A stretch of DNA of 64,000 bases from Solirubrobacter deserti. GTDB lineage: Bacteria > Actinomycetota > Thermoleophilia > Solirubrobacterales > Solirubrobacteraceae. How positions within the stretch are numbered: the first letter of the stretch is position 1; every line of letters begins with the position of its first letter. The DNA is taken from assembly GCF_027587175.1 (NCBI RefSeq), contig NZ_JAPCID010000031.1, forward strand, positions 1-64,000, given 5' to 3'. The translations under genes were made by a program, and so were the position numbers. The notes beneath the pieces are model-generated. The model saw nothing but the letters and a program-made list of their open reading frames with translations, did not search any database and was not told where the DNA came from. Shown here in pieces: positions 34,544 through 56,090 of the stretch.

Positions 34544-34563
34544 CGCGTTTTGGCACAAACGCG
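34544..34563. terminator. Hairpin in a low-GC gap
   Basis: CGCGTTT (34544-34550) pairs perfectly with AAACGCG (34557-34563) around TGGCAC. It lies 23 bases after the small membrane protein stop, in a stretch richer in A/T than the rest, and before the DUF559-like gene. It could terminate the upstream pair or regulate the downstream gene. Confidence 0.4.
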
Positions 34564-34596
34564 TGTTGATCCGTGCCAGCAAGCCGCTTGATCATC

Positions 34597-34646
34597 GGGG
34601 GTGATGAACAAACAGGTCGCGAGAGGACTCGTTCGTACATCACCCC
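34597..34646 (+). repeat. Palindromic element overlapping a gene start, copy 1
   Basis: GGGGTGATG (34598-34606) is the exact inverted complement of CATCACCCC (34638-34646), with further pairing inside (GAAC 34606-34609 with GTTC 34631-34634). The left arm contains the putative Shine-Dalgarno run and the ATG of the DUF559-like gene, so in mRNA a hairpin would bury the start site. The same element, more perfect, stands at 54583-54633. Confidence 0.75.
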
Positions 34647-35473
34647 GGCTCGACCTCGTGTGCCGGGACGAGTTGCACCTGACGCCGAGCGCGATCAGCA
34701 AGCGTGTCGCGCGGGGGACGCTGACGCGCCGCTATCCCGGCGTGTACTCCTACGGGCGCGGCGAGCTGTCCCCCGAAGCCGCGTGGATGGCGGCCGTGCT
34801 CGCCTGCGGTGAGGGCGCGGCGCTGGCTCACCTCTCCCTCGCTGAGCTGTTGCGTCTCTCGCGCTGGCCGGCCGAGGCCCCGCACGTCATCGTCCCGCGC
34901 CGTCACCGCCCGGTCGAAGGCATCACCCTCCATCACTGCCTCGGGCTCGACCCGCGCGACCTCACCGTCATCAACGGCATCCCCGCGACGACCGTCGCCC
35001 GGATGCTCGTGGATCTCGGCGCGACGCACACCGAGCACCAGGTCGCCTACGTCATCAACCAGGCCGCTTTCCGGCGCGTCTTCGACCGCGAGGCCACGCT
35101 GCGCGCGCGGGCCCGCGCGCACGGCCATCCCGGCACCGGCGTCTTGGCCCGCGCCCTCGCCCTCTACGAGTCCGGCAGCGCGGGGACCAAGAGCGCGCTG
35201 GAGGACCGCTTCCTCGAGCTGATGGCGGATCAGCCCGCGCCGCTGGTGAACACGGAGCACCTCGGCTACGAGATCGACTTCCGCTGGGAGCAGCGCAAAC
35301 TCGTCGTGGAGGTCGACGGAAACCACACGCGCCCGAAGGACCGGCGCAGCGACGCCGGTCGTGACCGCACCCTGCGCGCGGCGGGGTACACGGTCGTGCG
35401 GTTCACCGGCCCGGAGCTGCCGACCGCGCCCGCGCGGCTCGCGCCGTTCTTCGCTCAGCGGCCGACCGCGTAA
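34604..35473 (+). CDS. AbiEi-antitoxin-like / DUF559 nuclease-fold protein
   Basis: The ATG at 34604 (GTG 34601 is adjacent) gives 289 residues. The N-terminal half has an AbiEi-like winged-helix region (HLTPSAISKRVARGTLTRRYPGVYSYG). The C-terminal third matches the DUF559/Vsr-like PD-(D/E)xK pattern: SALEDRFLELM, YEIDFRWEQRKLVVEVDGNHTRPKDRRSDAGRDRTLRAAGYTVVRF in outline, with Glu, Asp and the Glu-x-Asp pair in place. No toxin partner (AbiEii) is adjacent. Function is unproven; the nuclease fold is a family-level inference. The first 15 codons lie within a palindromic element. A sister gene is at 63231-64000. Confidence 0.8.
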   Translation: MNKQVARGLVRTSPRLDLVCRDELHLTPSAISKRVARGTLTRRYPGVYSYGRGELSPEAAWMAAVLACGEGAALAHLSLAELLRLSRWPAEAPHVIVPRRHRPVEGITLHHCLGLDPRDLTVINGIPATTVARMLVDLGATHTEHQVAYVINQAAFRRVFDREATLRARARAHGHPGTGVLARALALYESGSAGTKSALEDRFLELMADQPAPLVNTEHLGYEIDFRWEQRKLVVEVDGNHTRPKDRRSDAGRDRTLRAAGYTVVRFTGPELPTAPARLAPFFAQRPTA

Positions 35474-53970: not shown

Positions 53971-54528
53971 GTGGGCGAACCCGGAACCAAGGAAGTCCTG
54001 TCGCTCGAGGAGCTCGAGGCGTCCGTCGGCCTGCGCACCGGCCGCAAGCACATCCTCTCGATCCTGGTCGAGAACAAGCCGGGCGTGCTGACCCGCATCG
54101 CCGGCCTGTTCGCGCGGCGGGGCTTCAACATCGACACGCTCGCCGTCGGCCCGACCGACGACCCGACGCTCTCGCGCATCACGCTGACCCTGGACGGCGC
54201 GATGCACCCGATCGACCAGGTGACCAAGCAACTGCACAAGCTGGTCAACGTCATCAAGATCCGCGACCTGGAGCCGACCGAGACGGTCGCGCGCGAGCTC
54301 GCCCTGTTCAAGGTGAGCGCCGACGGCTCCACCCGCGCCGAGGTCATGCAGATGGTCGAGATCTTCCGCGGGAAGATCATCGACGTCTCCAAGCGGTCCG
54401 TGATCATCGAGGTCACGGGCTCGTTCGACAAGATCGAGGCGTTCGAGCGGATGGTCCGGCCCTTCGGCCTGATCGAGATGGCCCGCACCGGCGAGATCGC
54501 CATCAGCCGCGGTCGCGGCGAGACCTGA
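53971..54528 (+). CDS. ilvH: Acetolactate synthase small (regulatory) subunit
   Basis: The 185-residue subunit activates the large subunit and confers feedback inhibition by valine. An ACT domain is visible in HILSILVENKPGVLTRIAGLFARRGFNIDTLAVGPTDDPTLSRIT, followed by the C-terminal domain RELALFKVSADGSTRAEVMQMVEIFRGKIIDVS..GSFDKIEAFERMVRPFGLIEMARTGEIAISRG. An N-terminal extension of about 25 residues precedes the ACT domain. ilvC, the usual next gene, is absent; two hairpins follow. Confidence 0.95.
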   Translation: MGEPGTKEVLSLEELEASVGLRTGRKHILSILVENKPGVLTRIAGLFARRGFNIDTLAVGPTDDPTLSRITLTLDGAMHPIDQVTKQLHKLVNVIKIRDLEPTETVARELALFKVSADGSTRAEVMQMVEIFRGKIIDVSKRSVIIEVTGSFDKIEAFERMVRPFGLIEMARTGEIAISRGRGET

Positions 54529-54542
54529 CCCACGGGTGTGCG

Positions 54543-54573
54543 GGTGGGCGTCCGCGGGTCCGCGGCGCCCACC
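54543..54573 (+). terminator. Terminator hairpin after ilvH
   Basis: GGTGGGCG (54543-54550) pairs perfectly with CGCCCACC (54566-54573), and the inner CCG/CGG bases of the two CCGCGG copies extend the stem. It lies 14 bases beyond the ilvH stop codon. Confidence 0.7.
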
Positions 54574-54582
54574 ACGCGAACC

Positions 54583-54633
54583 GGGGGTGATGAACGAACC
54601 GGTCCTGTGAGGACCGTCTCGTTCATCACCCCC
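54583..54633. repeat. Stand-alone 51-bp palindromic element, copy 2
   Basis: GGGGGTGATGAACGA (54583-54597) is the exact inverted complement of TCGTTCATCACCCCC (54619-54633). Inside, GGTCC (54601-54605) pairs with GGACC (54611-54615). Read on the minus strand it starts GGGGGTG-ATG-AAC and encodes MNETVLTGPVRSSPP, which aligns codon by codon with MNKQVARGLVRTSPR at the start of the DUF559-like gene at 34604. It may be a relic of such a gene or a binding site for its product. Confidence 0.85.
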
Positions 54634-54650
54634 GCCACTTCATAACCTGT

Positions 54651-56090
54651 ATGGCCTTGACGGTCGGCCAACTCACGCCAGGACGCGGACTCGCTGTCGA
54701 CGCCGATGCGCTGCTGCGGCGCGCCGAGCGCGCGATCAAGCGTGCGCGCAAGTCAGGCGAGCCGGTCCTGCTGGGGCTGACGGTGCGCGTCGGGTCGGAA
54801 GTGGACCCGAGCGCGGTTGTCTTCGCATCCCGCGCTGAGGGCGAGGACTGGTTCTGCTTCGAGCAGCCCGACCGTGCGGGTTCCGCGCTGGCGGCGTTGG
54901 GCGTCGTGACGCGGCTGACCGCGAGCGGCCCGTCCCGCTTCAAGCAGGTCTCCGCGGCGTGGCGCGCGCTGGCCGCCGACGCCGTCGCCGACGCGCCGGA
55001 CGGCCCGCCGGGCGCCGGCCTCGTGGCGGTGGGCGGCTTCGCCTTCGCCCCCGATGGCGGCCGCGCGCCGCACTGGGAGGGCTTCTCGGCCGCGGATCTC
55101 GTCGTGCCCGAGGTGTCCCTGGCGCGGCGTGGTGACGACGTCCGCCTCACCGTGGCTGCGCTCGTCGCCCCGGACGATGTGCCGTCCGATCTCGCCGAGC
55201 GCCTGTCGGCCCGGGTGGCTTCGCTGCGCCTCGATCCGCTGCCGATGCTCGATCCGGACCCCGTCGGCAAGTTCCGCGTGGACTCCGTCGCGCCGCCCGA
55301 GCACTACGAGGCCGCCGTCGCCCGCGCCGTCGAACGCATCCGCGCCGGCGCCTTCGAGAAGATCGTCCTGGCGCGCGAGGTCACCGTCCAGGCCCCGACG
55401 CCCCACGACGCCGCTGCCGTCTTCGGCGTCCTGCGCTCCGGTTTCGACTCCTGCTACGTCTTCTGCGCGGGCCGCGGCGACGCCGCCTTCATCGCCGCCT
55501 CACCCGAGCTGCTGGTCCGCCGCGACGGCGCCCGCGCCCAGACCGTTGCCCTGGCCGGCTCCACCCGCCGCTCCGCCGACCCCGCCGTCGACAACCACCT
55601 CGGCGAACAGCTCCTGCGCTCGGTCAAGGACCGCGAGGAGCAGGAGATCGTCGTCCGCCGCATCGCGCAGGCGCTGAAGCCCCACGCGGTCTGGGTCGCG
55701 GCGCCCGACGAGCCGACCGTCATCCGCGTCGCGAACATCCAGCACCTCGCCACGCCGATCCGCGCCCAGCTCGCGCACCCCTTGAGCGCGATCGAGCTCG
55801 CCGCGCTGCTTCACCCGACGCCCGCTGTGGGCGGCGAACCCCATGCCGCCGCGGTGCCCTTGATCCCCGCGCTGGAGGGCCTGGACCGCGGCTGGTACGC
55901 GGGCGCCATCGGGTGGACGGACGCCAACGACGACGGCGAGTTCTGCGTGGCGCTCCGCTGCGCGCTCCTCCGCGGCCACGAAGGGCGCCTGTACGCAGGC
56001 GTCGGCGTGGTCCGCGACTCGGACCCGGCGTCCGAGCTCGCCGAGACCGAGATCAAGCTCGGCGCACTCCTCCCGGTCCTTTCCGGCTAG
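54651..56090 (+). CDS. menF: Isochorismate synthase
   Basis: The enzyme converts chorismate to isochorismate, the first committed menaquinone step. The 479-residue protein has the chorismate-binding fold with the C-terminal signatures FEKIVLAREVTVQA, FIAASPELLVRRDGARAQTVALAGSTRR, LLRSVKDREEQEIVV, HLATPIRAQL, HPTPAVGGEPHAAA and RGWYAGAIGWTDANDDGEFCVALR. Salicylate and siderophore isochorismate synthases share them, but the neighbouring men genes point to menaquinone. It is the first plus-strand gene of the cluster. Confidence 0.92.
   Translation: MALTVGQLTPGRGLAVDADALLRRAERAIKRARKSGEPVLLGLTVRVGSEVDPSAVVFASRAEGEDWFCFEQPDRAGSALAALGVVTRLTASGPSRFKQVSAAWRALAADAVADAPDGPPGAGLVAVGGFAFAPDGGRAPHWEGFSAADLVVPEVSLARRGDDVRLTVAALVAPDDVPSDLAERLSARVASLRLDPLPMLDPDPVGKFRVDSVAPPEHYEAAVARAVERIRAGAFEKIVLAREVTVQAPTPHDAAAVFGVLRSGFDSCYVFCAGRGDAAFIAASPELLVRRDGARAQTVALAGSTRRSADPAVDNHLGEQLLRSVKDREEQEIVVRRIAQALKPHAVWVAAPDEPTVIRVANIQHLATPIRAQLAHPLSAIELAALLHPTPAVGGEPHAAAVPLIPALEGLDRGWYAGAIGWTDANDDGEFCVALRCALLRGHEGRLYAGVGVVRDSDPASELAETEIKLGALLPVLSG

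Follow-up and report, generated by a model that had tools for sequence, protein, structure and literature searches.

The published operator of an AbiEi antitoxin, the AbiEi box, comprises two inverted 23-bp repeats with a 3-bp spacer between them, is perfect in its outer 11 bp and totals 49 bp (PMC3985639), and Rv2827c likewise uses 23-bp inverted repeats (PMC7319586). Repetitive extragenic palindromes (REPs), which lie mostly in convergent and unidirectional gaps between genes (PMC3733652), are tied to one protein family, the REP-associated tyrosine transposases (RAYTs). An open question is posed by CGTC REPs, palindromic repeats that lack a transposase of their own (PMC3733652). Here we analyze a palindrome at positions 54583-54633 of a 64,000-nt stretch of Solirubrobacter deserti DNA (contig NZ_JAPCID010000031.1, positions 1 to 64,000; hereafter the window), which corresponds to C1:688301-752300 in a 7.55-Mb, 428-contig genome (G000). 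The palindrome stands alone after ilvH, and at 34604 the same window contains an AbiEi-DUF559 gene, whose predicted product joins an AbiEi-type antitoxin fold to a Vsr-like nuclease domain. We consider it probable, with moderate confidence, that this element is a copy of the AbiEi-DUF559 operator that stands alone in the manner of a REP and belongs to a family whose in-gene copy lies over the start codon at 34604.

Like the AbiEi-box operators of abiE (S. agalactiae; Rv2827c, M. tuberculosis), the palindromes described here have inverted 23-bp half-sites with a 3-bp spacer, their outer arms are the most conserved part, and the gene-start copies, unlike the copy at 54583, lie in the promoter or at the start of a gene that encodes a protein of AbiEi fold. 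They differ from these operators in that the palindrome overlies the start codon, no AbiEii gene lies beside the window gene, the protein has an extra nuclease domain, and stand-alone copies occur away from any AbiEi gene. As in REP/RAYT systems (REPtrons), they are short extragenic palindromes of lineage-specific families that share their palindrome with a cognate gene and are found mostly between convergent or unidirectional genes (PMC3733652, PMC2817692), whereas their partner is an AbiEi-Vsr-like fusion rather than a tyrosine (HUH) transposase and their copy number is low (about 6-25). No GTAG or CGTC tag was found at one end, the base being GGGGTG/CACCCC with flanks that vary between copies, and instead of a gene for a Y1 HUH transposase between two inverted REPs there is an AbiEi-DUF559 gene with one palindrome at its start. 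The element is REP-like yet without two defining features of REP/RAYT systems (the tag and the RAYT), and AbiEi-box-like yet away from AbiEi promoters.

The palindrome after ilvH and its counterpart at 34604

An inverted-repeat search recovered the palindrome where the original prediction had placed it, with arms of 25 nt each (54582-54606 and 54610-54634) that are 92% complementary and separated by a 3-nt spacer. The full element, including its outermost pair, reads CGGGGGTGATGAACGAACCGGTCCTGTGAGGACCGTCTCGTTCATCACCCCCG; it is assigned to no strand, and its core spans 54584-54632. Its predicted RNA fold has an energy of -44.6 kcal/mol (z -8.0; no shuffle was equally good), and its inner stem, previously described as 5 bases, is 7 bp long (CGGTCCT/AGGACCG). 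The element is a real palindrome and not a chance one. By analogy with the 23-3-23 layout of the AbiEi operator (PMC3985639) and the 23-bp repeats of Rv2827c (PMC7319586), and from the arm boundaries, the left 23-bp half-site (54584-54606, plus strand) is predicted to be the site of an AbiEi-like monomer; the right half-site (54610-54632, minus strand) is inverted, follows the spacer at 54607-54609, and is delimited by the arm boundaries and by compensatory change across the family.

The start of the gene at 34604 reads GGGGTGATGAACAAACAGGTCGCGAGAGGACTCGTTCGTACATCACCCC, and its palindrome (34598-34646, plus strand), a putative operator, lies over the start codon. When the element is compared with this gene-start 49-mer, 39/49 positions are identical on the plus strand and 38/49 on the minus strand, exceeding the best of 20,000 shuffled palindromes (32). 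The minus-strand alignment that had been claimed works, although the plus strand is marginally better; either strand aligns because the element is so symmetric. This genome and S. taibaiensis agree at 95% of the first 43 nt of the in-gene copy and at 66-83% of the remainder of the gene, as would be expected of a DNA site under selection within a coding region, the stretch being short. No second palindrome was seen by eye 3' of the DUF559 gene at 34604.

The element is located between ilvH, which encodes the small subunit of acetolactate synthase (53971-54528, plus strand; ALS_ss_C domain match), and a gene for a menF-like chorismate-binding enzyme (54651-56090, plus strand), whose ATG is 18 nt downstream of the palindrome. 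These are the flanking proteins, and no DUF559 reading continues past the element, as had been noted. A separate terminator-like hairpin, read from the sequence and without assigned strand, lies 3' of ilvH at 54543-54573; a promoter and terminator scan over 54400-54800 reported nothing. No Rfam family matched the element above threshold, and two miRNA families at E 0.03-0.6 were rejected as hairpin artefacts.

AbiEi-DUF559 genes and their start palindromes

The gene at 34604 (34604-35473, plus strand; start at ATG 34604 or GTG 34601) encodes a protein that matches Pfam DUF559 (2.5e-9) and, short of the curated cut-off, AbiEi_4 (0.0016). Across the 19 members compared, AbiEi_4 is found at E <= 0.1 in all 19 and PADLOC calls every one AbiEi (1.1e-21 for the window protein), and the NCBIfam DUF559 model matches 5/19, the window protein not among them. 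In the AlphaFold (AF2) model of the window protein (pLDDT 92.7), residues 11-189 superimpose on the S. agalactiae AbiEi structure 6Y8Q (Z 11.9, 170 residues aligned, rmsd 4.2) and the model also resembles Rv2827c (Z 8.8), while residues 197-288 superimpose on the nuclease domain of I-Bth0305I (3R3P; Z 12.2, rmsd 2.3) and the model resembles Vsr (1CW0; Z 9.4). Residues E200, D225, E236, D238, H241 and D250 are invariant across the 19 proteins. According to the model, the protein is a fusion of an AbiEi antitoxin with a Vsr/I-Bth0305I-like nuclease: it has the winged helix-turn-helix (wHTH) and C-terminal domain fold of the AbiEi antitoxin family, as well as the fold and conserved acidic and histidine residues of the Vsr/DUF559 nucleases. 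No AbiEii (DUF1814) toxin gene is adjacent to the window gene, whose neighbors encode a major facilitator superfamily (MFS) protein and a gamma-glutamyltranspeptidase, and because of this absence we do not file the locus as an abiE type IV toxin-antitoxin system.

Palindromes at the starts of such genes are a recurrent feature. Within Solirubrobacter (seven related genomes), palindromes of 36-62 nt that score at least 12 within 160 nt before the wHTH motif were found at 24/42 AbiEi-DUF559 genes as compared to 11/617 control gene starts (Mann-Whitney p 3e-16). In two of the 24 (L011 and L085) the best match is an upstream terminator-like hairpin, and both of these genes also have a GGGGTG-type palindrome. 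The GTG or ATG start usually lies inside the 5' arm, and several of the other DUF559 genes of this genome begin in palindromes of their own (e.g. GGGTGGTCGACC...GTCGACCACCC, GGGGTGCCCAACG...CGTTGGGCACCCC and CGGTCACTTGACC...GGTCAAGTGACCG). Within a genome, several AbiEi-DUF559 genes thus have separate palindrome families, in which the sequence diverges while palindromicity and length are kept. Beyond the genus, palindromes also occur at DUF559 gene starts in two genomes of the same family (G022 and G013) and in another actinomycete family (G110/G078), the control comparison covering the genus only.

Arm sequences differ from gene to gene, mostly at a constant length of 49 bp, an architecture that gene-start and stand-alone copies share. 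Forty-one palindromes of both kinds align over 49 columns without gaps and have 85.7% of their cells paired (64.5% when shuffled), although the paired percentage and the gaplessness are partly built in, as the sequences were selected as palindromes of such length. The informative part is the compensatory change between related families: two-sided changes occur at 18/23 pairs around a 3-nt center, and the covariation score is 0.493, as compared to 0.148 for shuffled sequences and no more than 0.117 for slid partners. Two inverted 23-bp half-sites with a 3-bp spacer are the layout of the AbiEi box, and it was by this length and symmetry that the family was recognized; sequence similarity to that box played no part.

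A leader motif, ACGCGTGTTGATCCGT (34559-34574, plus strand), lies upstream of the palindrome and is common to AbiEi-DUF559 genes, most of which have a conserved leader of roughly TTGGCACA..AAACGCGTGTAGATCCGTNACAG in this position; it is probably a common promoter. As a marker of stand-alone copies the motif was rejected, a slightly longer pattern matching exactly twice in the genome, both times at DUF559 genes. DUF559 has 13 matches in this genome, and a related-locus search with the closest protein pair returned two loci, both in S. taibaiensis. A second DUF559 gene in the window (L013, 63267-63419, minus strand) has its start beyond the window end and a weak palindrome.

Dispersed copies and their location at gene 3' ends

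A genome-wide search of the kind suggested by the original prediction yielded one copy with perfect 12-base arms, five places that match GGGTGATGNNC...GNNCATCACCC, each spanning exactly 47 nt (reversed-pattern control 0), and ten places by a covariance model, which was built from the five pattern places so that those five match by construction. The same model finds 24 places in S. taibaiensis. With the exception of the gene copy, the five pattern places have no DUF559 gene at the palindrome. Pairing between stand-alone copies and genes is also seen in a census of near-perfect palindromes that was blind to genes and covered 864 kb of two genomes, as several of the best intergenic palindromes are similar to the start of an AbiEi-DUF559 gene in their own genome. 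When compared with genes of their own genome, 7/28 stand-alone copies beat the shuffled maximum of 13 (L133 28, L136 23, L153 22, L030 22, L121 19, L043b 19 and L027 14); a G003 gene scores slightly higher with L133 (31), because that family is common to both genomes. The pattern CGGTCANTTGAC...GTCAANTGACCG was found seven times, at gene L014 and at six other places of this genome, and not in five congeners, and GGTGCGGTCG...CGACCGCACC occurs only in this genome and G003, each of which has two gene copies plus further stand-alone ones; the reversed controls of both patterns gave 0.

Stand-alone copies are located mostly at gene 3' ends. Their distribution over convergent, tandem and divergent gaps is 31/23/4, as compared to 36/178/102 in the background, with gap types assigned by a home-made codon-model gene caller (convergent versus divergent odds ratio 22; p 1e-11, which is optimistic, given the lack of independence among related copies of one genome). 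One option of the original prediction, a dispersed palindromic element that seeds gene starts, is thus upheld as to dispersal and not as to seeding, as palindromes at starts strongly favor AbiEi-DUF559 genes over others and the stand-alone copies lie mostly at 3' ends.

Comparison of the ilvH-menF gap in relatives, which had also been proposed, revealed neither the palindrome nor a DUF559 gene 3' of ilvH in 5/5 congeners. In S. taibaiensis (G004) a different gene comes after ilvH, and in G001 a hairpin comparable to that at 54543-54573 is followed directly by the menF leader TTCATACCCTGTATGG, without the palindrome. Elsewhere in the genome, three congeners are without the palindrome at C378:648719 with both flanks intact, and G001 is without it at C200:909888. 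The genomes differ at C9:53260: the copy stands alone in this genome, an AbiEi-DUF559 gene follows the ortholog of the upstream gene in S. taibaiensis, the upstream gene's stop codon is followed directly by another palindrome in G005, and G001 and G003 have neither. Presence in a single genome at several sites would favor gain over loss, and the element after ilvH is apparently an inserted spare copy.

Further observations concern the surroundings of the copies. The same gene end may carry different palindromes, or the gene itself, depending on the species (L272 G005:C8, L021 and L117), which could mark an insertion hot spot. S. taibaiensis has intergenic inverted repeats (about 500 nt; L171:11040-11640 and L159:15700-16260) that contain an AbiEi-type palindrome close to their tip and have predicted folds of -411 to -430 kcal/mol per 560-600 nt; related flanks occur in this genome at L020, L024, L025 and L139, and these flanks are common to copies with different palindrome families. 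Palindromes of another kind (AACCTAAA...TTTAGGTT) at L148:1326-1372 and L151:4983-5021 are probably unrelated repeats.

Origin and significance of the stand-alone copies

Two functional explanations were considered. The element could be a bidirectional terminator, or a hairpin that protects mRNA 3' ends, recruited from a handy palindrome, as suggested by its strong hairpin and by the copies at 3' ends and in convergent gaps (e.g. five stand-alone CGGTCA copies between plus- and minus-strand genes). We regard this as rather unlikely, as it leaves unexplained the arm sequence shared with AbiEi-DUF559 starts of the same genome, the fixed 49-bp length and the start-codon copies, while no terminator-like site was reported by the scan and ilvH has a hairpin of its own; a terminator role may be a by-product of location. 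Alternatively, the DUF559 protein might act in trans at the element to repress menF and other neighbors of stand-alone copies. Such a role, which would suit the operator-like architecture and the 18 nt that separate the palindrome from the menF ATG, seems quite improbable given that only 4/58 classified copies are in divergent gaps, as compared to 102/316 in the background, and that copies are tied to gene ends and not to starts. The proposal of a trans-acting site for DUF559-like proteins thus holds in part: by sequence, length and fold the element is likely a binding site, but the gap distribution makes a promoter regulon unlikely.

An origin as what is left of a vanished AbiEi-DUF559 gene is very doubtful for the element in the ilvH-menF gap, where no DUF559 sequence is present downstream, the leader motif of these genes was not found upstream, and five congeners have neither gene nor palindrome after ilvH; the gene that S. 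taibaiensis carries at the C9:53260 site is the evidence for such an origin, and the copy there may be a relic. Other, weaker inverted repeats do exist in the window, but the probability of a chance palindrome with chance similarity is negligible in view of the fold z-score of -8.0, the 39/49 identities against a null maximum of 32, the ten covariance-model places and the empty reversed-pattern controls.

The stand-alone operator copy that we favor could have arisen as follows. The N-terminal two thirds of the protein, the AbiEi antitoxin/autorepressor fold, would by analogy bind with two monomers, each occupying a 23-bp half-site of the 49-bp palindrome, and at its own gene start this binding would repress transcription. 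The C-terminal Vsr/homing-endonuclease-like domain would be the most plausible agent for nicking or cutting the palindrome, which could then be copied via repair into places where it is tolerated, mostly right after stop codons and between convergent genes. The analysis shows the palindrome family, its architecture, the cognate pairing, the 3'-end location and the presence or absence among congeners, and from these binding, autorepression and nuclease-driven spread are inferred. Spread by the nuclease domain is the weakest step, as gene conversion or template switching at hairpins would look alike. The modeled C-terminal domain shares its fold with the Vsr-like homing endonuclease I-Bth0305I (3R3P Z 12.2), but homing endonuclease genes interrupt their own target, whereas the start palindrome here is uninterrupted by the gene and the module for binding resembles AbiEi. 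Rickettsial palindromic elements (RPEs) and other in-gene palindromes (cited in PMC3733652) also lie within coding sequence; here, in contrast, the gene starts at which palindromes are enriched belong to one family, and there are intergenic cognates.

Several points weigh against an operator that was copied by its own protein. No target-site duplication was seen at the copies, and classical homing does not apply, as the gene leaves its own palindrome intact; binding of the palindrome by the protein, nicking and movement are all predictions. In the pairing test the window element scores 10 (best local run, to L012), which is not above the null, because its inner half has diverged, and its link to the gene at 34604 rests on the whole-length comparison. 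The GCGTCGAG family (L026 and L028, this genome) and the GCGGAAC family (L031, L037 and L041, G003) have no cognate AbiEi-DUF559 gene that we could find; the gene may have been lost, missed by Pfam or located in an assembly gap. In addition, 18/42 AbiEi-DUF559 genes have a palindrome score below 12, and the length match to the AbiEi operator appears striking, not universal; the second class (CGGTCA) is about 41 bp long, not 49. The gene caller and the non-independence of copies, mentioned above, temper the gap statistics.

The pattern appears to be a so far undescribed equivalent, in these soil bacteria, of the REP elements of bacteria. Literature searches returned, judged by title and abstract, nothing on DUF559-linked palindromes of such kind, and no match for DUF559 with AbiEi; the one match for an AbiEi-endonuclease fusion concerns, by its title, archaeal evolution. 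We tentatively propose a new class of mobile palindrome, in which the operator of an autoregulated AbiEi-nuclease fusion would be copied genome-wide by that protein and turn from a binding site into a selfish element of REP type, and in which each genome would have several protein/palindrome pairs, specific to one another, that diversify side by side. If true, orphan REPs would gain a new type of candidate partner, as dispersed cognate palindromes would then be linked to a second protein family unrelated to the first, the many natural protein/palindrome pairs would provide material for deciphering the code by which the AbiEi wHTH recognizes DNA, and a role would be suggested for many AbiEi-DUF559 genes of actinomycetes.
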